From: a virus
DNA length: 29,543 bases
Reading direction: 5' to 3' (one strand)
IMG/VR virus record: IMGVR_UViG_3300021356_000119
Span: 1 to 29,543 of that record
Positions 6,813 to 29,543 of this stretch are shown piece by piece; within the stretch, counting starts at the first letter, position 1; each line of letters opens with the position of its first letter. Below the pieces are notes generated by a model that was given only the letters and a program-made list of their open reading frames with translations, did not search any database and was not told the origin of the DNA. The translations under genes were made by a program, and so were the position numbers.

Positions 6813-7784
6813 ATGATCTCAACAAAAAACCTGATTTCAAGTATTAATGATGTAAATAGTGAATGGATATTTGAGTATTATCTAAATTTAGCTGAAAAGC
6901 TGTCTGGACAAGATGTAAAGATGAAGTCCATCTTTAATAAAGATGAGATACCGTCAATGTTTTTATATTGCAAAGACGGTACTTATAAATTCAAAGACTT
7001 TTCTTCTAGTAATCAAGGTGATGGTATTGAACTAGTAAAGCAGATGTTTAATCTAGCTACTAGAAATCAAGCTATCAGTAGAATAATTAGTGATTATCAA
7101 CAGTATGTAAAGTCTAATAAAGTACAAGTAAGTACAATACAAAAGCATGATAGATGGAAAGTAACTGACCATGAGATCAGACATTGGAATAATTTTGATG
7201 CACAGTATTGGTCTGAATTTAATATTAGTAGTTCTATACTAAAAGAATATAATGTAGCTCCATTAGAACATTTTACAATGGAGAAAGAACTTATAGATGG
7301 TAGTACTAAGAGTATTAAGTTTAATAAGACATATACTTATGGATATTTTAGAGAAGATGGAGAATTATATAAAATATACATGCCTAAAAATGTAGATAAG
7401 AAATTTATTAAAGTACAAGATTATCTGCAAGGTACAGATCAACTTAAGTATGATAAGAAGTATTTAATTATTACATCATCACTAAAAGATCTTATGGTAT
7501 TTAGACAACTAGGTATTGGTAATATAGAAGCAATAGCCCCTGATAGTGAGAATACTATTGTTCCTAGAAATTTACTAGATAAGATTACATCAAATTATAC
7601 TAAAACATTTGTATTGTTTGATAATGATCAGCCTGGTATTAATTCTATGAAGAAGTACCAAGAAATGTATGGATTTGATTATATAATACTTGATATGGAG
7701 AAAGATTTATCTGACTCTGTAAGAAAATATGGAATAGAAAAAGTTAGGGGAACATTGTTACCTTTAATGAAAAAGCTGATATGA
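6813..7784 (+). CDS. DnaG-like primase with TOPRIM domain (323 aa)
   Basis: The enzyme would make RNA primers for replication. The N-terminal segment (about residues 39-75: IFNKDEIPSMFLYCKDGTY, KDFSSSNQGDGIELV) follows the layout of the DnaG CHC2 domain but has only one cysteine, so the zinc site appears lost. The TOPRIM domain is visible as YLIITSSLKDLMVFRQLG (about 217-234) and FVLFDNDQPGI with the DxD metal pair (about 267-277). The glutamate of the canonical EGxxD motif is replaced by serine (SSLKD), a variant I associate with other Bacteroidota phage primases. No helicase domain is attached; helicase is supplied by the gene at 3733. The stop overlaps the next start (ATGA). Confidence 0.85.
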   Translation: MISTKNLISSINDVNSEWIFEYYLNLAEKLSGQDVKMKSIFNKDEIPSMFLYCKDGTYKFKDFSSSNQGDGIELVKQMFNLATRNQAISRIISDYQQYVKSNKVQVSTIQKHDRWKVTDHEIRHWNNFDAQYWSEFNISSSILKEYNVAPLEHFTMEKELIDGSTKSIKFNKTYTYGYFREDGELYKIYMPKNVDKKFIKVQDYLQGTDQLKYDKKYLIITSSLKDLMVFRQLGIGNIEAIAPDSENTIVPRNLLDKITSNYTKTFVLFDNDQPGINSMKKYQEMYGFDYIILDMEKDLSDSVRKYGIEKVRGTLLPLMKKLI

Positions 7785-8266
7785 AAAAGCATTTAAAAAA
7801 TAGAGTAAGAGAAGACATGTATGAATGGAATATTGAAATTGCTCATGGCAAAGTGATACCATTTACAGATGATATGATTCCTGAAAAAGCTGTAGGATTT
7901 GTTTATGTAATGAACTACTTAGCAAATGATGGACAAATGTATTCTTATATAGGTAAGAAGAACTTTTTTAGCAGAAGGAAGAAAAAGTTTGGAAAGAAGA
8001 AGTTGGCTGCTATGACAGACAAGAGAGCTAAGAAGTATGATATAGTTATCAAGCCTGACTATAAAAATTATTTCAGTAGCAATGCAGAATTAAAGCAAGC
8101 TTATAAAGATGGTAGATTAATATATAGAACCATACTTAAGATTTGTTTTAGTAAATCAGAACTAACCTATCAAGAAACTAAATATCAATTTAAATATGAA
8201 GTTCTTGAAAGAGATGAGTACCTAAATGGAAACATATTAGGAAGATTTTATAAAGGAAAAATATGA
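7781..8266 (+). CDS. GIY-YIG-type endonuclease (161 aa)
   Basis: GFVYVMNYL (residues 39-47) followed by YSYIGKKNF (54-62) is the two-strand GIY-YIG signature in the GFVY...YIGKK form common in phage proteins. A following basic stretch (SRRKKKFGKKK) could carry the catalytic arginine and bind DNA. A Glu in the later part (ELTYQETKYQFKYEVLE) could supply the metal ligand. The length is short and there is no extra DNA-binding domain. It could be a free-standing homing nuclease, though its ATGA overlap with the primase and coupling to the next gene suggest a settled role in phage DNA metabolism. Confidence 0.7.
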   Translation: MKKHLKNRVREDMYEWNIEIAHGKVIPFTDDMIPEKAVGFVYVMNYLANDGQMYSYIGKKNFFSRRKKKFGKKKLAAMTDKRAKKYDIVIKPDYKNYFSSNAELKQAYKDGRLIYRTILKICFSKSELTYQETKYQFKYEVLERDEYLNGNILGRFYKGKI

Positions 8267-8655
8267 GGTTTACATTAGAAGAAGCAAAAAACTTGATTAA
8301 AATGTTAAGATCAAGTGATGAAGAAAATCATCATGTAGCATTTGAAGCTATAAAGCAATCAGATTTATCTGATACTAGTACACTACTACTTTTATATAAA
8401 TTTGGAAGACGTTCTGATACAGAATGGCAAACACACTGTTATAAACCTTTTTTAACTTTAAGAACAAAATTAAAATTTTGGTATGAGTTGGAAGAAATAA
8501 GGAATGCAGAATGTTTATGGCTTTTAAGTACTACTCTTAAAGCGCCACATAATTTATTGGAAGCAGCTGTAGAGTATAGCGTAGAAGCTCTTACAGATTT
8601 TTTAAAACTTCAAAACTACAAAAAAGTAGATATACAAGTAAAATTAGAAAAATGA
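8263..8655 (+). CDS. Small helical protein with SSDxxN repeat motif (130 aa)
   Basis: The first 45 residues contain the segment NLIKMLRSSDEENHHVAFEA followed by a leucine-rich helix (TSTLLLLYKF). This aligns by eye with residues 263-300 of the 468-residue protein at 11168 and more loosely with the protein at 947. The pattern is two helices separated by SSDxxN, as in HEAT- or leucine-rich-type repeats, so a protein-interaction role is likely. The remainder is helical and weakly basic, ending in VKLEK. It overlaps both neighbours by four bases (ATGA), placing it in one coupled run from primase to the VWA protein. Confidence 0.65.
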   Translation: MRFTLEEAKNLIKMLRSSDEENHHVAFEAIKQSDLSDTSTLLLLYKFGRRSDTEWQTHCYKPFLTLRTKLKFWYELEEIRNAECLWLLSTTLKAPHNLLEAAVEYSVEALTDFLKLQNYKKVDIQVKLEK

Positions 8656-9890
8656 ATAAACAAGATTCACTAAGTAAAACATCAAAAGATTTGATGTTAA
8701 AGGAACCGTATTATGGTTTCTTTTTGTTAATGTTGCATAAGTCATGGGATGACAGAGTAGGCACAGCAGGTGTCTGTAAGAATGGTATCAACTATCAATT
8801 GATGATAAGTGAGAAGTTCTGGAATGATCTATCTGAAGATCATAGATTAGGTTTACTAAAGCATGAGTTATTACATATTGCTTTTAATCACCTTACTACA
8901 TTTGATATGTTCTCTGACAAGAAGTTGGCTAACATTGCAATGGATATGGAGATTAATCAATATATAGATTCAGCTTGGTTGCCTGAAGGTGGTATTGATA
9001 TAGATGATTATGAGCATTTAAATCTAGACAGAAAAGCGGGTACTAGATATTATTATGATCAGCTTTTGAAAGCTCAAGAGAATAAGAAACAACAAGGTAC
9101 TTCTGGAGATGAGAATATGGATAAGCTTCTTGATGCTCTAGAACAAGGTGAATGTAAAGTTATGATCGGTGATGGTCAAGGAAATAGACCAGGTCAAGGT
9201 AATGATAAAGAAGTTGAGATACCTGATCATGAGTGGGAAGAGTTTGAGAATATGCCTGATGCAGAAAAGAAGTTGATTGAAAAGCAATTGCAAAGAGTAT
9301 TGCTTGATGCTAAAGAGCAGACTGAAAAGAAGCGCGGGTTTGTACCTGGAGAGATATCAGGTCTACTTAAACTAGATGAAGTTATACCACCTAAATTTAA
9401 TTGGAAAGCATATATAAAGCGCTTTACAGGTATATCTACAAAGATCTTTACTAGAAAGCTAAGAAGAAAAGAGAACAAAAGGTACTCTGATAATCCTGGC
9501 CTTAAGATAAAGATGAGACAAAACATGCTTGTTGGTATTGATACATCAGGTTCTGTTTGTGATGATGAATTAAAAGAATTTATGAATGAGATTCATCACT
9601 TGTATAAAGCAGGTGTTGAAGTTACAATTGTACAGTGTGATTCTAGAATACAATCTATCAAACCATATGATGGGAAGTTTGAACTAGAAGTTGCAGGTAG
9701 AGGCGGGACAACATTTGATCCTGTTCTAGAATATTTTAATGAAAGAAAGCAGTTTACAAGCTTGATTTACTTCACAGATGGTGAAGCATGGACAGATATA
9801 AAACCTAGGAAACCAGTCCTATGGGTATTGTCAGAGAGATCTGATTTTAATGATGAATTACCAGGAAAACAAATTAGATTAGAACTTTAA
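8652..9890 (+). CDS. VWA-like metallopeptidase-type protein (DUF2201-like; MoxR partner)
   Basis: The N-terminal domain carries HELLH (residues 71-75) with His80 and the later DMEINQYID phrase, the layout of the predicted metallopeptidase domain of the DUF2201 family. A Gly/Gln/Glu-rich linker (about 150-200) follows, then a basic segment. The C-terminal von Willebrand A-like domain has the MIDAS sequence DTSGS (297-301), GRGGTTFDP (349-357) and YFTDGEA (373-379), all consistent with metal binding. The next gene is a MoxR-type AAA+ ATPase; such VWA/MoxR pairs act as chaperone-like machines in bacteria. The substrate in this phage is unknown. It couples to the upstream gene by an ATGA overlap. 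Confidence 0.85.
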   Translation: MNKQDSLSKTSKDLMLKEPYYGFFLLMLHKSWDDRVGTAGVCKNGINYQLMISEKFWNDLSEDHRLGLLKHELLHIAFNHLTTFDMFSDKKLANIAMDMEINQYIDSAWLPEGGIDIDDYEHLNLDRKAGTRYYYDQLLKAQENKKQQGTSGDENMDKLLDALEQGECKVMIGDGQGNRPGQGNDKEVEIPDHEWEEFENMPDAEKKLIEKQLQRVLLDAKEQTEKKRGFVPGEISGLLKLDEVIPPKFNWKAYIKRFTGISTKIFTRKLRRKENKRYSDNPGLKIKMRQNMLVGIDTSGSVCDDELKEFMNEIHHLYKAGVEVTIVQCDSRIQSIKPYDGKFELEVAGRGGTTFDPVLEYFNERKQFTSLIYFTDGEAWTDIKPRKPVLWVLSERSDFNDELPGKQIRLEL

Positions 9891-9900
9891 AAATTAAAAA

Positions 9901-11070
9901 ATGAGTACACAATTGAACGTAGATGAGTTGAAAGACTTCTTAAAACACATGGTGAAAAACAATCAGCACATTCAAAATGAAGGTAAAGTACCTGTTGCTG
10001 TGAATATTGAAGGTGATGCGGGCCTTGGTAAAACTTCTGCAATTATGCAGCTTGGTAAAGAGCTGGGTATGGATGTTGTAAAGATTAATCTATCTCAGAT
10101 AGAAGAATTAGGTGACCTTGTTGGTTTTCCTGTAAAAGAATTCAAGATAGCTAATAAAGATGGTAAAACTACCTGGATTAATGAAGCTCAGATGGATGCT
10201 GCTATGAAGAAAGGTTACAAAGTTGTAGACAAGAGAATGTCTCATGCTGCACCTGAATGGATTCAAGGTAAGTCTGAGGGTGGTTTCTTGGTTCTTGATG
10301 ATTATACTCGTGCTGACCACAGATTTATGCAAGCTACTATGGAGTTAATTGACAGACAAGAATATATTTCTTGGAGTCTTCCAAAGAACTGGCATGTAAT
10401 CCTGACTACTAATCCAGACAATGGTGACTATCAAGTTACTAGTCTTGATGATGCTCAGAGAACTAGATTTATTTCTACAGAAGTAAAGTTTGATTCTAAT
10501 GTATGGGCACGGTGGGCAGAGACTGTTGGTATTGACGGTAGATGTATTAACTTCTTGTTGATGAATCCTGAGACAGTAACTCAGAAGGTTAATCCTAGAA
10601 GTATTACTACCTTCTTTAATTCTATTAGCTCTATTGATAAGTTTGAAGATGAGTTGCCACTGATCAATATGATTGGTGATGGGTCTATTGGTGCAGAGCC
10701 ATCTGCATTATTTGCTATGTTTATTAATAACAAGCTAGATAAGATCATTAGCCCTGAGCAGATTCTTACAAATGATGATTGGAACTATGTCAAAGGTTCT
10801 TTGAAGAGCTGCATTGGTAGCGGAGATGATTTCAGAGCTGATATCTCTAGTATTATTAGTACTAGGATAATCAACTTTGCATCTGTTACAGCTAACAAAG
10901 GTTCTGTTCCTCAAAAGATGATTGATAGAATTATTGAACTAGTCACTGACTGTGATTCATTTACTGATGATTTGAGATATTTCATTGTTAAAGAGATACT
11001 CAATTCTAACAAAGCTAAATTCCAAAAGCTAATGATGAATCAGAAGGTGGTGCAGATGACTGTAAAGTAA
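9901..11070 (+). CDS. MoxR-type AAA+ ATPase (389 aa)
   Basis: Walker A is GDAGLGKT (residues 38-45), followed by the MoxR-family phrase IEELGDLVGFP (67-77). Walker B is FLVLDD (129-134), sensor 1 is TTNP (169-172), and DDAQRTRF (183-190) supplies the arginine-finger region. The C-terminal half is helical, as expected for the lid and an extra domain. It lies ten bases after the VWA-like gene and is almost certainly its functional partner, remodelling proteins or complexes with ATP energy. The unit may end here: a hairpin without a T-run lies in the gap that follows. Confidence 0.9.
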   Translation: MSTQLNVDELKDFLKHMVKNNQHIQNEGKVPVAVNIEGDAGLGKTSAIMQLGKELGMDVVKINLSQIEELGDLVGFPVKEFKIANKDGKTTWINEAQMDAAMKKGYKVVDKRMSHAAPEWIQGKSEGGFLVLDDYTRADHRFMQATMELIDRQEYISWSLPKNWHVILTTNPDNGDYQVTSLDDAQRTRFISTEVKFDSNVWARWAETVGIDGRCINFLLMNPETVTQKVNPRSITTFFNSISSIDKFEDELPLINMIGDGSIGAEPSALFAMFINNKLDKIISPEQILTNDDWNYVKGSLKSCIGSGDDFRADISSIISTRIINFASVTANKGSVPQKMIDRIIELVTDCDSFTDDLRYFIVKEILNSNKAKFQKLMMNQKVVQMTVK

Positions 11071-17963: not shown

Positions 17964-20900
17964 TTAACTAAATCTTGTTGATGAACCTTCTAAGTTTTTA
18001 AGTACTGTAGTAGGATCTCCTGTTCCACCTGTAAAACCAACTGCTTTAAATATCTTTTTGTACAATTTAGCTTCACCTTTTTGTTGCCACCAGTATGGGC
18101 CAGTATCTTTTTGATATTCAGGTAAACCATTACCACTAATAAAACTAAGTATGTCTCCAAATATTTGAGCATAAAGTGTAGTAGTGTTATACCATGCTGA
18201 TGATGTTGATGTAATCATTTTAGTATAATCATCAAGACCAAAGTTTTGTCCAGCTACTCTTGGTAGTGGAATGAATGCTGTGGTCTCAGCTTGTACACCT
18301 AATGTTAAAAGAAGCATGTGATTAGCTAAGAAACCATATGTATTATAACTTTCTGTACCATATGCACCTGATCTTCTTTTTAATTTCTTCCATTTGTCTT
18401 CATCATCTGGATCAAATCCTAGTAACATTGATGCAATTAAAGCTAACGCAATAGTTGCTAATCCTTCACTAGCAAATCTTCTAAAGTCACCCTTTTCTTG
18501 ATCTGTTAGATACTGATAGTCTGCGCCTTTTGATTTAATTAACTTAACTAAAGTTTGGAATGCAGATATATAATATCCTTTTGTATACTTACCTAGAGCC
18601 CAGTCATATCTATAACCACCATCTGTTAATGTAGCAGTCTTAGGGTCAAAACCAAATCTATTTACAAACATAGGAGTAAACCATTTTCTCATAAAGAAAA
18701 ATAATCTATAGATAACATACTTGTTACCTTCTGGAGCACCCATTCTATCATATACACCAAACAATCTTCTTGATGTACCTTGTAATTTATTTTTAAATCC
18801 TTTAAATTTTTCAGACTTAGCTATAACGATCTCTTGTCCATCTTCTAATTGTATTTCAGACTTAATTCTATTCTTAGCTTTAAGTTCATCTACTGGTATA
18901 TAATATCTTTTAGCAATCTCTTCTAAACTTTCTCCTTCAGTATAGCTATGGTACACAGGTACATTATTCCAACCTGGATGGACACCTTCTTTTAATTTAA
19001 TAATTCCTTCTTCATCTTTTTCCCAAGCATCTACATATCTTAATGACTTTTCTGTACCATCACTAAGAATTTGAGTTACTTTTTGACCGTGTAAAAAGGA
19101 CCCAAATAACTTAACAGCTACGTCCATCTCACCAAATTTTCTATGCATGAATGTCCACTCCAAGTTTGTTAAATCTTTTACCATAGATCTCATAACTTCT
19201 CTACCAAACTCATCTGTAGTTTTAAATGCAGGATCAAATATTTGTATAAGCTGTGTGCTCATGGCGCCAGGACCTACACCATAGATACCTTTTCTAGTCC
19301 ACTCTAACATAGCTTTAGTAGCCCATGGAGTTGCAAGTGCTAAATCTTTAGATGTAATAAAGTCACCACCTGTAGATTCAATTATTGTTTGAACATAACC
19401 TGATATTTGGTTCTTTAAATCTGCAGGTATATTTAAAACAAGAGATCCGAAACTAGAGAAGCCTTGAAGCTTTTGAAGTATTTTACCCATCATAGGATGG
19501 TTTTCTTCTAAACCTGCAACTTGTTTACCATAATATTCTCTTTCTATTAAAGACCTAACTTGACCTAATCTATTATTAGTAGCACCTTTTTTAAGAACAG
19601 CTTGTAATTTATTTTTAAGATTAAATTGATTTTTAGAAAATGTATCAAGTTCTTTTAGTTGATTCTCAGGATTTTCTAAAGTATCAAGTAAGCTTTCTAC
19701 TAATGGAAGACTTTCTAATAACTTACCTTGTGTCTGAATTGATAAGGCGTATCTAAACATAGTTGATATAACGTCTGCATCAGTAATATCTAGATCAAGA
19801 TTATATATACCAGTGATTGGTATGTAACTAACTTGCTCACCATTTAAATCAGTATTAACTAAGTTATTTTCTGGATTATAATTTAAATCATTTTCAAAAT
19901 CAACTTTAGATTTACCAAACTCTTGACTTAAAAAGTTTTTTACTCCAGCTTTTATATCTCTAAAGCGTTCACCATACTTACCTCTTTGTAATCTTTGATA
20001 AATGTCATTTGTTTTAGTGGCATATCTAGGCATGTCCATATATAACTTACCATAGTTACTCATACCTTCTTGCATCTCTAAATGAAAATCTGTCATTGCT
20101 TTTAGCAATTGATACTCTGCTGAATTTTTATTAGAACTTATTTGTTTAAAACGTTGACTAATAAATCTATCATCCTTTGCACTATACTCTTCATTCTCAC
20201 TAAACTTTCTTGGAAGCCAGTTGCCTTTATTATCTATATATTTTCCAACATATTGCTGCCTATCTTCTCCAAAAGGTATAGTTCTAAACTCATTTTTAAC
20301 TTCAAATCTTGAATGTCTAGCTGAAGGTACACCTAGCAAAGTAACTTCTTCTCCAGTAGCTGTATCTGTTATAGTTGTAGTTTCAATATGTTCAGGATTA
20401 GATGGCATCTTTACAACATTAGCTGCAGTAGGCATATATTTAATGTCTAATGCTTTTGCTTTTTTATTGTAAAAAGTTTTCTCTACATGATTTAATTCAA
20501 ACCACTCTAATAAAGCTGTATCATTTTGAAGTAATTCTTGAAACTCTTCAGAATTTATAAAGTCTTCTACTTCATTAGCTTGTATTTCTTTAACATTCTG
20601 TTTTGATAAGTTATAGTTTAGAGTATCTATATAGTAATCAGTAACATAAGTATCTGTCATACTACCTAGTTCTGCAAATAACTCTCTTCTTCTTAATTGT
20701 TCTTCTGCAGTTAATCCAATATCTTCTTGTAAATCACTTAAATAAATAAATCTATCTGCTTGAGCTGATCCAGGTGTAATCTCACCTCTATTATTCATCC
20801 TACTAAGGTTTCTTAATTCTTCAGCTTGCTCAGAAGTTAAACCTGTATTTGCCTCACTCTCTCTTTGATAATCAAGTATTTGTTGTTGAAGTTCTTTAAT

Positions 20901-23900
20901 TCTACGTAATCTTTCTGTACCCATTTCATTAGATATAGGCTGATTATAATCATCTTTATATGCAAACATTAAATTAGAGATCTCTTTGTAAGCAGCGCCA
21001 ATATCAAAAGTTTTATTTTTAATCTTAGCATCTATCATTGCAAGCTCTTCAAACAATTCATTTCTAGATTTCCAATACTCATCAGTATATTTTACGCTTA
21101 AGTTTTGTCTTTTCCACTGATTTAATTTTTCTATAAACTCACCAGAACCCTTTGTTATACCTTCACCCTCTAATTGATTTAAAAATTCATTATAAGATAG
21201 TTGTAAAGAACCAGGTACAGGAATCATTTCTCTAAATTGAGTTCCTTCTCTAGATTGTCTTAGTGTCTCTGCAATACTTTTATCATAAATACCTTTCTCA
21301 GGATCATCTATTTTATCAGTACCATCTTCATATTGTAAAGAATATAATTGTTGGTACTCTCTCCACGCAGCTTGAATAGAAGGATATGCTTCTAATCTTT
21401 CTAACTCATTATCAAATTGATTTTGTAAGTTATTAAATGCTTGAAGTTTTTCTTGACGTACAGTGTATGCTAGTTTACCTATCGCACTATTTTGAAATAT
21501 CTGTTGTCTTTCATAATACTCAGGGACATACTCTTGCCACATGTAATCATTATTAAACTGCTGTAACTTTTGACGAGCTTCAGCTAGCTTAGTTAAATCA
21601 CCTTCTTGTCTAGCTTTCTCAACTTCAAACTCTAGCGTATCTTGTTCAAATCTCCAGCCATTACCAAACTCATTAAGAAACACATAGATCTCTTTAGCAA
21701 CTGGTTCACCTGATTCTTTATCAAAAAACATTATAGTATCTTTTTCTCCTAACAAATCTCTCATTTGAGCAGTGTTCATTTTAGAAAAGTTTACTTTAGG
21801 TAAAAGTTCTGCTAACTTTTTTCTAAAAGACATTGATTTTTTCCAGACTTCATTTTCTACTTCAGTTCTTTGATCCTGAATAAATATAGATAAAGGACCT
21901 ACTATAACATCATTAGATGAACTATAACTTTCTAACCATCTATTAAAGAAAGAAACATCATGAGCATTACCTGTAAGTGCAGCTTTGATCTTATCTTCAT
22001 TTACAACATAATCTCTATATTCTTTAATAAAAGATTCTAATATATTTCTAGGTACACCTTTTTTTACTAGTGCATCTACATCTTGATCAGTAAATTGTTG
22101 AGTTATGACTTTATTATAAGTATCTTCTATAGCCTTCTCAAGCTCTTGCGGATTTTTAAATGCTTTTTGAAATGCAGTATTCAAATTAGATTTAAATCTA
22201 TCATTTACAAACTCATTCATATAACCTGTAATTTCTACAAACCACTGTACATTATTATCTAATAATATCTTAGCAACCTGAGAGTTGATCCTTGTAATGT
22301 TATTAGTAATCTCATTTAAAGTTTGATAGAATAAATTATTTGTATCTGTATATTGACCGTTCTTCATTAACGTTTCATCAATATCTTTAAGCATCCCCAA
22401 CCAGGCTCTGGCTGTATTCTTATACAAAAACATTAAAGCAACAGTGTGTCTATTATTTAAACTAGGATCTGATTGGATCTTAGCTAAATCTTTAAGCATG
22501 TTTTTACTTATTGTATTTATAGTATCAAAGCTATTAATAAGTGCTTGGGATTTATTCTTAATAGTAATTGCTCTACGTTCTTCTCCTTCTAATACTTCTT
22601 GTATTTTTTCATCTTCTGTAGCTTCTTTAAGTTCATCAAAGTCTACAAAATCTCGTAATGATTGTGTTATACTAGGTAGCAGCTTTGTGGTTCCTTTTTG
22701 AAACAGTGTCTCCTTGAGCATTTTTTTTGTACGCTTATCACTTTTAAAATTCTTTGCGTCATTTAAAACTCTAAGGTTTACATTTAAATCTGTTTCTATA
22801 ACTTCTTGTAAAGATTCAACATTTGTATGATTGGCCAGATCTTGTGCTCTTTCATTTACCATCCTAGCATACATTACTAAATCTTCTTCTGTAATATCAG
22901 GAGTACCTAAATCAAAATCTTTTTCAAGCATCATAGTAGCTAGCTCATTAAGAGTTGTATCTTGATTAAGCTTAGATACTTTTATTTTCTGACCAAAGAT
23001 ATTTCTTAGCATCTTTTTAATAGACGCTAATAGCTTTTTAATAAACTCTTGGAAACCATTAGTCTCTACTTGATTAAGTACTTGATTAAAAGACTTTAGT
23101 TGTAAGGCGTATGCTAATACTTCTTCTTTAAATAAATCAGAATCTTCATTTAGTTCTGGATAGTTTGTTCTTACATGTTCAGCAATACCTACACCTTCTT
23201 CAGTGGCCATTGCTTGATCATACAAATTATCAAATAACTTTTTATTATCCTTACGTATAGCTTGTAATAATGGATGAGAGAACTCATGTAATACTGTGTT
23301 GACATTAACATTGTCTCCCACTGTATATATAGTTCCTGCAAAATAGAAACCAGCTTCTCCGTTGTATGGTACAGATGTATTCTCTAATATCTTACCAGCT
23401 TCTTCAGGAGTAACATTCTGATAATTCATCTGCATACTAAGAGCAAGCTTCTCAGAAAGAGCCTGTGCTATTCTTTTTGATCTAGTATCTCCAAGCTGTT
23501 TTAAATTTAGGTCTATTAAAGGGACCCCTTGTACAGTCTCAAAAGGACTTTTAAATGTAAATTGCTCTAAGTTAGGTTCATTTACATCTGGAGAAGCTTC
23601 TACATTTTCTTTACGTTTATATAGTTGATCAAGCTCATTAAATAAACTGTCATTTGGAATTGCTCTATAAATTTTTACTTGATCATCTCTCCAATATTTT
23701 GAAGTTCTAACATCAATTTGCTCAGAAATATTTATATCAAAAAGCTTTTGACCTTGTGTATCAAGACCATACTTAGTCTCAGCTAAGATTGTAAGCTTAT
23801 CATTAAGCTCGTCAAACTTACTTCTATCAACAATAGCTCTAATATTATTAGTAGCTCCTTGATTTTCTAAATAATTTATTGCATTAACTTTTACTTCACA

Positions 23901-23906
23901 CAGCAT
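17964..23906 (-). CDS. Giant virion-type protein: zincin domain, LysM domain, hydrophobic C-terminal segment (1980 aa)
   Basis: Three parts can be identified. HEFSH at residues 207-211, with EEVLAYA (261-267) as a possible third ligand, is a zinc metallopeptidase signature. A long central region of about 1300 residues is rich in charged helices and has no motif I know. A LysM-type segment (about 1653-1697: YTEGESLEEIAKRYYIPVDE, then a LKAKNRI turn and GQEIVIA) would bind peptidoglycan. Near the end a hydrophobic stretch starting at residue 1815 (GLATIALALIASMLLG) precedes DPDDEDKW. In crAss-like phages the genes next to the virion RNA polymerase encode giant ejected cargo proteins; this fits. 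It begins one codon after the polymerase's TAG, in the same frame. It could cross the cell wall with the polymerase or process cargo; both are inference. Confidence 0.8.
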   Translation of the reverse strand: MLCEVKVNAINYLENQGATNNIRAIVDRSKFDELNDKLTILAETKYGLDTQGQKLFDINISEQIDVRTSKYWRDDQVKIYRAIPNDSLFNELDQLYKRKENVEASPDVNEPNLEQFTFKSPFETVQGVPLIDLNLKQLGDTRSKRIAQALSEKLALSMQMNYQNVTPEEAGKILENTSVPYNGEAGFYFAGTIYTVGDNVNVNTVLHEFSHPLLQAIRKDNKKLFDNLYDQAMATEEGVGIAEHVRTNYPELNEDSDLFKEEVLAYALQLKSFNQVLNQVETNGFQEFIKKLLASIKKMLRNIFGQKIKVSKLNQDTTLNELATMMLEKDFDLGTPDITEEDLVMYARMVNERAQDLANHTNVESLQEVIETDLNVNLRVLNDAKNFKSDKRTKKMLKETLFQKGTTKLLPSITQSLRDFVDFDELKEATEDEKIQEVLEGEERRAITIKNKSQALINSFDTINTISKNMLKDLAKIQSDPSLNNRHTVALMFLYKNTARAWLGMLKDIDETLMKNGQYTDTNNLFYQTLNEITNNITRINSQVAKILLDNNVQWFVEITGYMNEFVNDRFKSNLNTAFQKAFKNPQELEKAIEDTYNKVITQQFTDQDVDALVKKGVPRNILESFIKEYRDYVVNEDKIKAALTGNAHDVSFFNRWLESYSSSNDVIVGPLSIFIQDQRTEVENEVWKKSMSFRKKLAELLPKVNFSKMNTAQMRDLLGEKDTIMFFDKESGEPVAKEIYVFLNEFGNGWRFEQDTLEFEVEKARQEGDLTKLAEARQKLQQFNNDYMWQEYVPEYYERQQIFQNSAIGKLAYTVRQEKLQAFNNLQNQFDNELERLEAYPSIQAAWREYQQLYSLQYEDGTDKIDDPEKGIYDKSIAETLRQSREGTQFREMIPVPGSLQLSYNEFLNQLEGEGITKGSGEFIEKLNQWKRQNLSVKYTDEYWKSRNELFEELAMIDAKIKNKTFDIGAAYKEISNLMFAYKDDYNQPISNEMGTERLRRIKELQQQILDYQRESEANTGLTSEQAEELRNLSRMNNRGEITPGSAQADRFIYLSDLQEDIGLTAEEQLRRRELFAELGSMTDTYVTDYYIDTLNYNLSKQNVKEIQANEVEDFINSEEFQELLQNDTALLEWFELNHVEKTFYNKKAKALDIKYMPTAANVVKMPSNPEHIETTTITDTATGEEVTLLGVPSARHSRFEVKNEFRTIPFGEDRQQYVGKYIDNKGNWLPRKFSENEEYSAKDDRFISQRFKQISSNKNSAEYQLLKAMTDFHLEMQEGMSNYGKLYMDMPRYATKTNDIYQRLQRGKYGERFRDIKAGVKNFLSQEFGKSKVDFENDLNYNPENNLVNTDLNGEQVSYIPITGIYNLDLDITDADVISTMFRYALSIQTQGKLLESLPLVESLLDTLENPENQLKELDTFSKNQFNLKNKLQAVLKKGATNNRLGQVRSLIEREYYGKQVAGLEENHPMMGKILQKLQGFSSFGSLVLNIPADLKNQISGYVQTIIESTGGDFITSKDLALATPWATKAMLEWTRKGIYGVGPGAMSTQLIQIFDPAFKTTDEFGREVMRSMVKDLTNLEWTFMHRKFGEMDVAVKLFGSFLHGQKVTQILSDGTEKSLRYVDAWEKDEEGIIKLKEGVHPGWNNVPVYHSYTEGESLEEIAKRYYIPVDELKAKNRIKSEIQLEDGQEIVIAKSEKFKGFKNKLQGTSRRLFGVYDRMGAPEGNKYVIYRLFFFMRKWFTPMFVNRFGFDPKTATLTDGGYRYDWALGKYTKGYYISAFQTLVKLIKSKGADYQYLTDQEKGDFRRFASEGLATIALALIASMLLGFDPDDEDKWKKLKRRSGAYGTESYNTYGFLANHMLLLTLGVQAETTAFIPLPRVAGQNFGLDDYTKMITSTSSAWYNTTTLYAQIFGDILSFISGNGLPEYQKDTGPYWWQQKGEAKLYKKIFKAVGFTGGTGDPTTVLKNLEGSSTRFS

Positions 23907-23909
23907 AAT

Positions 23910-26900
23910 CTAACATTTAAACGGATCTTCTTCTAAACTTAATTGAGCAAGAATCTCTGCATCACTTATTCCTTGAGTCTGAGCCACTACCTCTTCAACT
24001 ATATCATACTGTGTTGAACCTGGGTTTAAATAACCAAACTCTTCAAAGAGCCTTCTACTTAAATATACGAATAATTCTTGAGGTAAGTTTTTACCAAATC
24101 CAGTTTCTGGAAATGCAATAACTACTCCTGAATCTCTAACTTTTTTAATCTCATTTATTCTACGCTCATACAACTCTTTAATACTTTCATATGTATAAGG
24201 TGTATCAGCCATACCATCATCTTGTCTATTCTGACCTGTTGGTATATCAATTGACATATCTTCAGCTTGAGTTACAAACTGACTTTGACCTCCAAAATCA
24301 ACAGTGTAGTCTGATTGTAGTTCTTTGATTGTACTATTGTGAATAAATACTACATCTTTATTATTGTACACTAGATTATTATAGTACCTAGCGCCTGGTC
24401 TAGAATCATTATATGTAAATACACCAGGTCTAGATGTAATAGATAAACCTAATCTGTTAGATGGAGCTTTTTCTTCATCTAAGATTCCTACATCATCTGT
24501 TCTTCCTTCAGTTGGATTTGGTACATCTTTTATTCTTGCAGGATTCTCATAATCTATATTGGCTAAGTAATCTTTAAATCTTCTTTTGTTTTTATTGTAC
24601 TTAGAATTTTGTTGTTCAAATAAAGTTAAGAAGTTGTCTAAGAACTTGTTACCATTCTTATTAAGTGTATTTATAAGATCAGTTTCACCTTGTTCTAGTG
24701 TCTGTACAAACGGTGTGTAATCTACTACATTAGTTATACTTAACTTTTCTTTGTTTAAACCAGTCTGCATAAACGCATAAAGTTTAAGATGATTAAAGAA
24801 TCTACTTATAGTCATGTTTGCATCTCTATCCATAACTTTTACAACACCTGGATTAGCTAAGTCTTCTAAGTTTTTAGTGTACAAGTTAGACTTATCATTG
24901 TTAAAGTCTTTATCAGCTATGTATAGATTAAATACAGTTTGATTCTCATTTGTATCTAGCTGTAATCTTTGTAGAACTTCATACTTAGATTTTAAGTTTG
25001 GAAACTCTGCCATTATTTCTGTAAATCTAATAGCAGTTGCATAATCAGGATCTAAGAACATATGATATATATTCATAGTATTCTCAAGCGCCATGTGAGA
25101 TATCATCTTTTCATAAGTATATCTTGCTTGCTTATCTTTACCTAAATTAGGTTTAGTATCTTCAGTTTTCTCAAGTTCTCTTTCAAACTCTGGAGTCTTT
25201 GACAGCTCAGCTATAGGATAGATATCTCTTAATGATTCTCTTTCTAGTACAAACTTTAAATACTCATTAAAGTTTTTACCTTCATTTCTCATAAATGTTC
25301 CTGGGTTTAGCGGAAACAATCCTCTCTCTTCATAGCTATTATCTGAATCAGAATCTTCTGCCCAGTCTTTATTTAAAAATTCATCTTGTAAAACTCTTTC
25401 ATCTACATACATCACACCATCTTTTACAAAAGCTCCTCTTGATAAGGACTCTACTCTTTTAGTACGGAATGATTTCTTAAGTTCAAAAGAAGTATATGTA
25501 TCTCCTAGTTTATATTTTCTGAGTTCATTTTGGAATAAGAAAGACACCAAGTCATTTCTAAATATAGTTGAGAATAACTCTTTATTACCTCCAGGAAATA
25601 ATGAAGGGATCAAGTTATCTTTAATGTTTTGATCTTTTACAATAAGATAATCTGAGATAGCTTTATTAAATCTAAGATTAAACAATGACTTACTCAGCGC
25701 TATAGATAAAGGTCCGTTAAAGAAAGAACTAATTACAGAATCATTCATAAAAGATTCTAATAGCTCTGCATGATCACCAGTCTTCTGTGCATCTAGATCA
25801 GCTTCAGTTTGTTCTACATCAGATATTGTACTCTTAGTACTTGTATCTGGATTAGAGGTAAGTTTTACAGCTGTCAAGCCGCCAACCTGTGTTTCTAGAG
25901 AAAGATAGTGTAAGAACATAGCTCTAGCTACATTACTAGTTTTATCATTTTTATTGATAACACTTTCCATTTCTGATAGAGTAAAGTTTTTATCTCTTCT
26001 ACCTTTAAAAAGATCTTCTATCATTTCTTCTCCTATCTTATGTCTCTCTGCATTCTTAGATTTTCCTGAAAGTTTATCTTTAAAATATCTAGCAATAACT
26101 TTTGATGATGCTTGTCTTCTTGTGTATGCAGGTGAATCAGGCTGTGTACCTAGCAAAGGAGCAAAGGTAGACTTAGCTAAACGCTGTTCTTCTACATACT
26201 CTCTTACAAGTGGGTTAGATACAAAGTATATTGCTTCTTCTACAGGCACACCAGCTTTAACTAGATATAGTAACTGCGGTGCTACTTCATAGTTACCTTG
26301 TATAAAGAAGATCCATGCATCTTTCTCAACATCTACCCAACCGTTCATCATCTGTGATATAACATCAGCAATTTTATTTACACCATCTACATCAAACTGA
26401 TTAGACAATGAAATCTGTTCTGTATCTCCAAACTTATTATGTCTTAGATACATGTTTACTTTTCTTGATTCAGATTTATTTTTACCAACATTAATAAACT
26501 CAGGCATTTTAGCGCCAGCTGCATTCATGATCACATTAAATGTGTTCTCTACTGCACCTAGACCTAAAGTTCTTTTACCTACAGCGTTTGACTCATGCTT
26601 GTATAAGTTATAAAGCGGTTCAAATATTCTAGTAGGACTGATACCCTTGATATCTACTTTCTTACCATCTTTATCTAATACAGTATTAGGATTGTATTCC
26701 ATAACCTTTTTAGATAATTTATCTGCAATACCTTTAAGTAAGAATGTACCATTAGGAGTTATCAAACTTGCATAGTTGTGTGGCATTTCTAATATCTCTC
26801 TGATATCATTAATCATTTCATTTTCAAGACCTGCTTTTTGTGTCTTAATCTTCTGAGATTCTAGACCATTTTTAGCAATATCTTCTTTTAAGGATGCTGT

Positions 26901-29543
26901 ATTAGAAAATTCTGGTTTAACAACCTTTCCTACTGCATCTAAGTTATTCATAAAGAAAGTTAACTTATCAATATCAAAGTCACCACCTGACTTAGCTACA
27001 ATTTCTTTAGGTACAACTACAATATTACTAGCTTGTGGCGCTAAGAACTCATAGACCTCTGCAAATTCCATAGAGTTTAGACCCTGCACAGGAATACGTA
27101 CACCAACTAGTGTAATTGCTTTTCTATTTGCACCGTTATTAGCATCTAACCATACATCATTCTTAATTTTTTCATTAAGTCTTGCCAAGCTAGCATCTAT
27201 ATCTAAGTTACCATCTTCATCAGTGACCCCTATATATTCTATAGAACCTGGTCTTTCAGCATACTTAAGATTAAATAAGTTATAGTAGTCACCTTGCATA
27301 GCAATTGCCACTTTCATCGCTGCTGTCTTGTTACCATTTCTTTTATCTCTATAATATGTTGGCAGATCTATATCATATAGAGCGGATGATTTTTGAACTA
27401 AAGGTTCACCTTTAATCTTAGGCTTAATTATTCTCTTGTTTATTACAGATAATAATACCTTTTCAATTTTAGCTGCATCTGGGTGGAACGAGGTATCATG
27501 TCTGAGCTCACCACTGTCAAATACATCTATAAATTCTATAAGATTATCACTTAATACATCTTCTCTTTCTAGATTAGTTCTAATTAGATTGATGAGTTTA
27601 CCAGTGCTTCCTGGGCCTTTTGGTACGAAGTTATCCTTACCATCTTCTTTGTATCCTATCTCCTCTAATAGTTCATACTTCAAAAGCTCAGTGTAATCAG
27701 ATACATGGTCTAAGTATCTTTTAACTTTTTTACTTGTTATCTTGGATTCATCAGTTGTATCAATAGCACCCTGAGTATACAAACCTTCTAAGATCAGCTT
27801 TCTCATCTGTGTAGAGAAGATTGATTTACCTTTGTAAGACGCATTAACCTCTGTTTGATTTTTGAGATATTCTGCAAAGATTGCATTTTTAGTAAACTCT
27901 ACTTCTTCATTAAACTTACCGTCTTGCATGATAACATCTCCTGATCCTATGTGAGATACTTTTGAACCTGATTCAAATGTAACATAGTCCATTTCTTGTT
28001 CCATCATCTTCATATGCATTCTATGCAATGGAGAATTTTCTTTTGCTACTCCAGGAATTAATGGAGCTAGTGAGAACTTATGGAAAGATGTGACAGGTAA
28101 ACCTTTGTTTTGGATATTACCAAAGTACTGTAGTTTATATGGTGGGAAGTATTCAATTAAATCTTCTATAGATAGTTTTTCTCCGAGAGCAACTTTCTTA
28201 TATAATCTTTCTTGATTATCTGTCCAATTGTTTTCAAGCTTTTTAAGCATTCTATAAGATTCAAATGTAATATAACCTTGACCATCTCCTATCTTCATAC
28301 CTTGATATTCACCCATTGCTGTTTCAGCAAGCTCTTTAGCCTTAGCTCTATTCTTGATACGAGAATAGTAAACAGATTCTAGATGTTTTCTATACTCTGC
28401 ATACATTGTAGAATCTTCTTCTAACTCTTTAATAATAGCTGTATTTAAAGTACCGTCATATCTACGCATTGGCATATTAAGTCTTTCTGCATAGTATCTT
28501 TTAAATAAAGAGTTATCATTTATATACATCTGAGCTCTAATATCAGAACGGAAACTTCTACCGCCTGCACCAAGACCAGCATTACGTTTATGAAACTCTT
28601 CTTTAGCATGATTGTATTGTACTGCATCACCATAAGCTATAATGGTTGTCTCAAACTTATGTATCCATGAGTTATATACATATGCTTTAACCAATATTTC
28701 TTGCAGCTCATCAGGACTTAATGTATATCCTTTTACATCTACTTTATCTAACAAAGCTTGATCTACATAAGAAGACTTACTTAATTTATTATTAGTCTCC
28801 TTAGTGACACGATCAAAATAATCTTGAATATCTTGACGAACAGCTTCTAACAAGTTGATATCTGATTCTAAATAATCTTTAAAGTTTACATAGTTTGAAT
28901 CTGTCTCACCACTCTCAATATCTTTTATAGCTTGATAAATTTTCTTTTGTGTATCATAAGATAATACATCATCAAAAGCTGTAAGTGCTGATCCAGCGTC
29001 TACTTCTTGACCTAATTTATTAGTTACTGTTCTATTATATCCTTTAAGATTACTATACTTTCCTGTATTATATCTTAGAATTCTATTAACTTCTCCTGAC
29101 AAATAACCAACCATTATATCTGTACCACGATCTTCACCAAATCTACCTGGCATAAATGCTTGTACATCTACATATAATTTTTGTGACTTCTTACCATCAT
29201 AAGTTTGTACTTTATCAGAAAGAGTTATACCCATAGCAGTATTCTTAGAAGCATGTCTCATGAACTCTTCTACACCGTTAAGCAACATACTATGAAATTC
29301 TTGAAGCATCTTACTTGTTGCATCCATAGAAGCTGTAGTTGTACCTTCTGAGTTTTGGTATTTATCTATAAGCTGCGTCCCTGATACATTTTGTAACACT
29401 AATGAGTTCTCTTTCTTTTCCCCAAAGGTATCTGACATTGGATCTAAGTCAAAGATTGAGTTAAGCAATACAGAAAACTGAGTCATAGTATTGTTGTTTG
29501 GATTCATCCAATACATATGTTTAAATAACTGATTAGGATCTGC
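23910..29543 (-). CDS. crAss-like virion RNA polymerase, single chain (5' end outside window)
   Basis: The frame is open to the window edge upstream of the ATG at 29516, so the true N-terminus lies outside and the visible part is at least 1877 residues. Counting from the Met at 29516, SGGDFDIDKLTF places the DxDxD loop at Asp846, Asp848 and Asp850, which hold the catalytic magnesium in two-barrel RNA polymerases. About 40 residues earlier, VRIPVQGLNS (around 806-815) matches the RxP segment that precedes the loop in cellular beta-prime. This arrangement matches the polymerase carried in the virion of crAss-like phages (for example phi14:2 gp66), which is injected and transcribes early genes. 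The last 165 residues may form a separate domain. The stop is TAG. Confidence 0.85.
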   Translation of the reverse strand, partial: ADPNQLFKHMYWMNPNNNTMTQFSVLLNSIFDLDPMSDTFGEKKENSLVLQNVSGTQLIDKYQNSEGTTTASMDATSKMLQEFHSMLLNGVEEFMRHASKNTAMGITLSDKVQTYDGKKSQKLYVDVQAFMPGRFGEDRGTDIMVGYLSGEVNRILRYNTGKYSNLKGYNRTVTNKLGQEVDAGSALTAFDDVLSYDTQKKIYQAIKDIESGETDSNYVNFKDYLESDINLLEAVRQDIQDYFDRVTKETNNKLSKSSYVDQALLDKVDVKGYTLSPDELQEILVKAYVYNSWIHKFETTIIAYGDAVQYNHAKEEFHKRNAGLGAGGRSFRSDIRAQMYINDNSLFKRYYAERLNMPMRRYDGTLNTAIIKELEEDSTMYAEYRKHLESVYYSRIKNRAKAKELAETAMGEYQGMKIGDGQGYITFESYRMLKKLENNWTDNQERLYKKVALGEKLSIEDLIEYFPPYKLQYFGNIQNKGLPVTSFHKFSLAPLIPGVAKENSPLHRMHMKMMEQEMDYVTFESGSKVSHIGSGDVIMQDGKFNEEVEFTKNAIFAEYLKNQTEVNASYKGKSIFSTQMRKLILEGLYTQGAIDTTDESKITSKKVKRYLDHVSDYTELLKYELLEEIGYKEDGKDNFVPKGPGSTGKLINLIRTNLEREDVLSDNLIEFIDVFDSGELRHDTSFHPDAAKIEKVLLSVINKRIIKPKIKGEPLVQKSSALYDIDLPTYYRDKRNGNKTAAMKVAIAMQGDYYNLFNLKYAERPGSIEYIGVTDEDGNLDIDASLARLNEKIKNDVWLDANNGANRKAITLVGVRIPVQGLNSMEFAEVYEFLAPQASNIVVVPKEIVAKSGGDFDIDKLTFFMNNLDAVGKVVKPEFSNTASLKEDIAKNGLESQKIKTQKAGLENEMINDIREILEMPHNYASLITPNGTFLLKGIADKLSKKVMEYNPNTVLDKDGKKVDIKGISPTRIFEPLYNLYKHESNAVGKRTLGLGAVENTFNVIMNAAGAKMPEFINVGKNKSESRKVNMYLRHNKFGDTEQISLSNQFDVDGVNKIADVISQMMNGWVDVEKDAWIFFIQGNYEVAPQLLYLVKAGVPVEEAIYFVSNPLVREYVEEQRLAKSTFAPLLGTQPDSPAYTRRQASSKVIARYFKDKLSGKSKNAERHKIGEEMIEDLFKGRRDKNFTLSEMESVINKNDKTSNVARAMFLHYLSLETQVGGLTAVKLTSNPDTSTKSTISDVEQTEADLDAQKTGDHAELLESFMNDSVISSFFNGPLSIALSKSLFNLRFNKAISDYLIVKDQNIKDNLIPSLFPGGNKELFSTIFRNDLVSFLFQNELRKYKLGDTYTSFELKKSFRTKRVESLSRGAFVKDGVMYVDERVLQDEFLNKDWAEDSDSDNSYEERGLFPLNPGTFMRNEGKNFNEYLKFVLERESLRDIYPIAELSKTPEFERELEKTEDTKPNLGKDKQARYTYEKMISHMALENTMNIYHMFLDPDYATAIRFTEIMAEFPNLKSKYEVLQRLQLDTNENQTVFNLYIADKDFNNDKSNLYTKNLEDLANPGVVKVMDRDANMTISRFFNHLKLYAFMQTGLNKEKLSITNVVDYTPFVQTLEQGETDLINTLNKNGNKFLDNFLTLFEQQNSKYNKNKRRFKDYLANIDYENPARIKDVPNPTEGRTDDVGILDEEKAPSNRLGLSITSRPGVFTYNDSRPGARYYNNLVYNNKDVVFIHNSTIKELQSDYTVDFGGQSQFVTQAEDMSIDIPTGQNRQDDGMADTPYTYESIKELYERRINEIKKVRDSGVVIAFPETGFGKNLPQELFVYLSRRLFEEFGYLNPGSTQYDIVEEVVAQTQGISDAEILAQLSLEEDPFKC

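Follow-up and report, generated by a model that had tools for sequence, protein, structure and literature searches.

A probable zincin metallopeptidase domain in a gp49-type cargo protein from an uncultured crAss-related phage

The closest described counterparts of the protein studied here come from crassviruses. In crAss001, gp49 and gp50 have been detected in virions by mass spectrometry (PMC10172136; PMC6235969). According to the ejection model for this phage, gp45 and gp46 form the channel, and gp47, gp49, and gp50 are polymerase-related cargo that passes through partly unfolded (PMC10172136). The corresponding protein of phi14:2, gp76 (g065), is annotated as structural in the database on the basis of mass spectrometry and is labelled 'RNA polymerase accociated protein' in RefSeq. 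A second precedent is phage N4. The order of structural elements in the zincin metallopeptidases of polyvalent proteins has been described, and every N4-like polymerase is reported to carry such a metallopeptidase as a fusion (PMC5512222). Both the cargo family and the occurrence of zincins beside virion polymerases in N4 were already known.

We analyzed a 29,543-base record of an uncultured virus, referred to as the window. Its minus strand carries a giant gene next to an RNA polymerase gene, with the following features.

17964..23906, minus strand: cargo protein gene (1980 aa), assigned to the crassvirus cargo family (crAss001 gp49/phi14:2 gp76) by BLAST and by Foldseek against BFVD
23652..23906, minus strand: conserved N-terminal segment, residues 1-85, with 36% identity to phi14:2 gp76 (BLAST)
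18390..19850, minus strand: C-terminal core, residues 1353-1839, common to crAss001 gp49 and phi14:2 gp76 (BLAST, structure model, and BFVD matches)
23910..29543, minus strand: C-terminal part of a crAss-type RNA polymerase, its 5' end lying beyond the window, recognized by the DFDID motif and by BLAST to crAss001 gp50 and the phi14:2 RNA polymerase
26967..26981, minus strand: DFDID catalytic motif of the RNA polymerase

In a BLAST comparison limited to the fetched ORFs, the 1980-residue protein matched crAss001 gp49 and phi14:2 gp76, with E-values of 3e-9 and 8e-8. The C-terminal core could be aligned with both proteins and the N-terminus with phi14:2 only, and the protein is longer than either of them (1349 aa in crAss001 and 1421 aa in phi14:2). 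Residues 1001-1980 were modelled (mean pLDDT, 79; pTM, 0.61), and the model was compared with the viral structure library BFVD using Foldseek. The matches were crAss-like proteins, including the phi14:2 structural protein S0A048 (E 8.7e-17, TM 0.53), whose fold the predicted C-terminal half shares.

The gene neighborhood was also alike. As in crAss001 and phi14:2, the cargo gene is codirectional with the RNA polymerase gene and adjoins it, with the cargo ORF starting 3 bases past the polymerase stop codon. Two scans for related loci yielded 11 and 79, respectively. Among the 74 relatives with enough upstream sequence, 72 had the RNA polymerase upstream of the cargo gene, with the ends mostly overlapping or abutting. 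In an 85% relative (L001), the full-length polymerase comprises ~3255 aa. Each of the 12 long contigs with the cargo gene had a portal of the crAss001 type (E 1e-11 to 1e-23); 10 of them encoded a homologue of the crAss001-type major capsid protein, with weak E-values. A homologue of crAss001 gp44 (muzzle/stabilisation) was found in one of the 12, as a marginal match. The window itself contains neither a portal gene nor a major capsid gene. Judged by its homology to crAss001 gp49 and phi14:2 gp76, the polymerase neighbor, and the portal and capsid genes of related contigs, the 1980-aa protein is a cargo protein of the gp49 type, from an uncultured environmental crAss-related phage. By analogy with gp49 and gp76, it is presumably present in its own virion. 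The original prediction of a giant cargo-type protein encoded directly downstream of the RNA polymerase was thus borne out. A single match in a 7-kb contig of a Rickettsiaceae MAG was not used to assign a host, as this contig is probably mis-binned phage.

We then examined the N-terminal part of the protein, where an HExxH motif lies in a zincin-like domain.

23067..23504, minus strand: zincin-like domain, residues 135-280, defined from a 53-sequence alignment (A5), with the secondary structure H-E-E-E-H(HExxH)-H(E262) and an hhalign match to the N4 vRNAP metallopeptidase
23274..23288, minus strand: HEFSH, residues 207-211, part of an invariant HExxHP
23121..23123, minus strand: Glu262, the probable third metal ligand, on helix 257-276

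The motif might have been a chance occurrence in a helical cargo protein, and the lack of a match to any curated family is what such an occurrence would give. From composition, 0.011 HExxH motifs are expected in a protein of 1980 aa, and 1% of 20,000 shuffled sequences contained one. HEFSH alone is only suggestive, and it is the conservation of the site that decides. We therefore counted conservation in an alignment of 79 proteins, considering at each site only the proteins that covered it. H207, E208, H211, and P212 were identical in 73 of 73 relatives, and E262 was identical in 74 of 74, at pairwise identities down to ~25%. In the domain profile, seven of 147 positions showed no variation at all (A, F, H, E, H, P, and E); the four motif and ligand positions were all among these seven, for which the chance probability is 2e-6. 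Together with a zincin-like order of elements and the profile match to the N4 metallopeptidase described below, this invariance makes a chance motif highly improbable, and we strongly disfavor it. The zincin-type motif had been predicted with either Glu261 or Glu262 as the third ligand. The HExxH and a downstream Glu on the following helix were confirmed, and the ligand could be narrowed to one of the two residues: E261 was kept in 64 of 74 relatives and replaced in ten, which leaves E262 as the candidate.

The original prediction had looked to profile searches and a predicted structure for a verdict on this domain, and these gave a divided answer. No curated peptidase family was found for the domain in Pfam, PHROGs, or NCBIfam, and a profile search of the PDB with the domain returned no zincin. 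In a model of residues 125-1000, the domain consists of a helix (135-158), three strands (161-165, 186-189, and 192-196), a helix carrying the motif (202-220), and a further helix carrying E262 (257-276), with pLDDT values of ~70-89 over these elements. This predicted order fits that described for the zincins of polyvalent proteins (PMC5512222). When the 876-residue model was searched against the PDB with Foldseek, the matches were only long helical chains and were uninformative on the zincin.

Ten phages were used to build a profile of the N4 virion-RNAP metallopeptidase. In hhalign, this profile matched the strand-plus-HExxH part of the domain with a probability of 61% and an E-value of 8.3e-5, the alignment covering just 22 columns. 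As a control, an unrelated stretch of the cargo protein gave 0.69 against the N4 profile. The comparison of the domain with N4 was not significant by HMMER. The two domains share the HExxH with a later Glu and a strand-then-helix motif (TIYLV...TLxHExxH), and both are tied to a virion RNA polymerase. They differ in that N4 has its domain fused with a single-subunit polymerase of the T7-like kind, whereas here the polymerase is crAss-type and the domain belongs to the separate cargo protein next to it. The domain thus resembles the N4 metallopeptidase at the sequence level, a likeness that falls short of proving family membership. Taking the model and the conserved site together, residues 135-280 are a probable zincin, with a motif and downstream Glu of the gluzincin type.

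A further HExxH was observed in relatives of the polymerase. The N-terminal extension of these proteins (whole gene in L001, 230-9994) holds a second invariant HExxH...E domain (YHEAWHGFSQLFL ... IEExxAEDFR), for which no family match was found. Its homology to the core zincin of the cargo protein was unsupported (hhalign E 0.03). An HEAFH resembling the motif of this extension was seen in crAss001 gp47 and in Dulem virus 41. PDB sequence searches with the cargo protein, the polymerase, and both HExxH profiles returned nothing relevant.

Other crassviruses differ at the catalytic motif. At the corresponding stretch, crAss001-type cargo proteins have EExxH where the clade of the 1980-aa protein has HExxH. 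EExxH with a later conserved Glu was found in crAss001, DAC15, Dulem virus 41, cr106, cr108, cr112, cr126, cr128, cr85, bajarodcaudo virus 1, and phi17:2. In cr111 and cr116, the motif was absent and the cargo gene was kept. When the gut EEFAH stretch was compared with HEFSH, hhalign aligned 108 columns with an E-value of 0.002, and HMMER gave no significant match between the gut EExxH domain and the cargo zincin; these comparisons give modest support to their being the same domain. If they are homologous, the first histidine is different in the EExxH viruses, and the site there may be dead. The HEIMH of phi14:2 probably belongs to another zincin type. It was considered as the same domain and set aside, as the profile search was unsupportive and the sequence that follows it (YGFTNVHEFISE) looks nearer to zincins found in a variable slot of L027 and L029.

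The EExxH of gut crassviruses and the missing motif in cr111 and cr116 imply that the cargo role is independent of the peptidase. They also favor a structural or pseudo-zincin, which might bind metal without cleaving and whose fold would serve packing or refolding at ejection. In the clade of the 1980-aa protein, however, neither the catalytic Glu208 nor any of the three ligands varies among the 73-74 relatives, and such constancy would be needless in a purely structural domain. We consider a pseudo-zincin unlikely for this clade, and the metallopeptidase is probably active. A broader proposition, that an active injected metallopeptidase is universal in the delivery machinery of the large uncultured crAss-like clade and that gut crassviruses have converted this domain to a pseudo-enzyme with EExxH, is doubtful at present. 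If true, crass-type cargo delivery would exist in protease-dependent and protease-independent forms.

Just before the zincin-like domain, at residues ~110-130 (window ~23520-23580), relatives carry a slot with 0 to ~1200 extra residues of changing sequence. Some of these inserts contain further HExxH domains, with HEIVH in L027 and L029 and HELAH in L048. A PHROG match to 'virion RNA polymerase' in the L048 insert did not cover the HELAH motif and was discarded. From its sequence, the slot looks made for exchanged cargo domains.

What the invariant site does can be considered against this background. A zincin-like domain might be an injected effector that, once delivered, cuts a host protein, for example a defense or transcription protein, as has been proposed for the metallopeptidases of polyvalent proteins (PMC5512222). 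Such a slot, with some inserts bearing HExxH, is as expected of effector exchange. Effectors usually differ by host, however, and here all members of the clade have the core zincin in invariant form, with only the neighboring slot varying. An effector role for the core zincin therefore seems improbable to us. We consider it fairly likely that the 1980-aa protein is a co-injected gp49-type cargo protein with an N-terminal zinc metallopeptidase that works during delivery. The protein would share the virion with the polymerase and enter the host by ejection, either before the DNA or together with it. Given the invariant metal site, the peptidase would act around delivery, and trimming of itself or of the co-delivered polymerase or cargo is the most likely activity, although we propose it tentatively. 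Cutting of a host protein and a role as a metal-stabilised structural domain are somewhat less likely alternatives, about equal to each other. Processing is preferred on account of the universal site, since the variable slot is the place where one would look for exchanged effectors.

In L119 and L120, from the contigs of L004 and L062, the stretch of crAss001 gp45 around a predicted transmembrane helix matched inside ORFs of 2447 and 2763 residues. This suggests that the channel cargo protein forms part of another giant protein in the clade.

The C-terminal half of the cargo protein carries two further features.

18813..18956, minus strand: LysM, residues 1651-1698, an insertion within a core loop (Pfam PF01476; beta-alpha-alpha-beta in the model)
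18420..18476, minus strand: hydrophobic helix at residues 1811-1829, with an acidic DPDDEDKW motif after it

A LysM segment had been predicted near residues 1653-1697, and PF01476 matched residues 1657-1695 with an E-value of 1e-5 and 25.8 bits (gathering cut-off, 20.9). LysM was also among the fold matches, and the predicted model has the beta-alpha-alpha-beta order. The module agrees with Pfam LysM domains in this order and in scoring above the curated cut-off; it differs in being a single copy inside the cargo core instead of at a terminus. PF01476 matched 35 of 46 relatives. Ten relatives (L075-L077, L080-L083, L087, L091, and L093) had a short loop in place of LysM, and the module was also missing from the crAss001 and phi14:2 relatives, including gp49 and gp76 themselves. 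In a tree made from the C-terminal core without LysM, the module was present throughout a large clade, and a small nested group (L079, L094, and L095) had a LysM-like segment plus an extra insert. This distribution implies at least two gains of LysM, or one gain followed by losses. Because LysM is absent from a sister clade and from the crAss001 and phi14:2 relatives, its sequence distribution marks it as a dispensable accessory insert rather than the part that drives passage through the wall.

The hydrophobic segment, predicted to begin at residue 1815, was present, with its maximum slightly upstream of that position. The strongest 19-residue hydropathy window of the whole protein spans residues 1811-1829 (mean, 1.87). 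The median hydropathy of the helix was 1.90 across the 79 relatives, and the aligned place in crAss001 gp49 is also hydrophobic, indicating conservation into that protein.

The original prediction had joined the zincin and LysM into one device for crossing the cell wall, and a fuller form of this idea is a trans-envelope conduit in which LysM would grip peptidoglycan, the helix would be embedded in the inner membrane, and the zincin would clear the way. A canonical LysM and a conserved hydrophobic helix would suit such a conduit, and the DEV/N4-type vRNAP has been modelled in the inner membrane (PMC10925440). Several points speak against it. The zincin-like domain is universal in the clade, whereas LysM is an insertion missing from the sister clade and from the relatives crAss001 and phi14:2, and so cannot be a general requirement for getting through the wall. 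In addition, the channel of crAss001 is assigned to gp45/gp46 and not to gp49, zincins target peptide bonds and not glycans, and the core might enclose the helix. We regard a conduit as quite unlikely, and the two parts that the original prediction combined behave differently. Anchoring to peptidoglycan by LysM is conceivable. In the delivery role that we favor for the protein, LysM would act only in the lineages that have it, holding the cargo at peptidoglycan or docking another virion protein.

The crassvirus literature that we searched contained no mention of zincin, protease, peptidase, or LysM for these proteins; Yutin 2018 and the phi14:2 polymerase study lay outside its scope, and an earlier mention is possible. 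As far as tested, the invariant zincin-type site in the gp49-type protein of this clade, the inserted LysM, and the contrast with EExxH appear to be new. With an invariant peptidase-type site in an ejected cargo protein, an E208A point mutation could separate roles in processing, host attack, and structure. N4 offers a parallel, as a domain of this type is found there on a virion polymerase that is unrelated. Across the group, the natural series of HExxH, EExxH, and lost motif forms a comparative test.

Another HExxH product is encoded in the window. The genes at 8652-9890 and 9901-11070, both on the plus strand, comprise a DUF2201 protein adjoining an AAA ATPase. The DUF2201 protein has a putative metallopeptidase domain with HELLH and a VWA-like domain (Pfam E 1e-14 and 8e-18), and its family is labelled 'HNH endonuclease' by PHROGs. 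Within the replication gene block, a SegE-type GIY-YIG homing endonuclease is encoded at 7781-8266 on the plus strand (Pfam E 6e-19).
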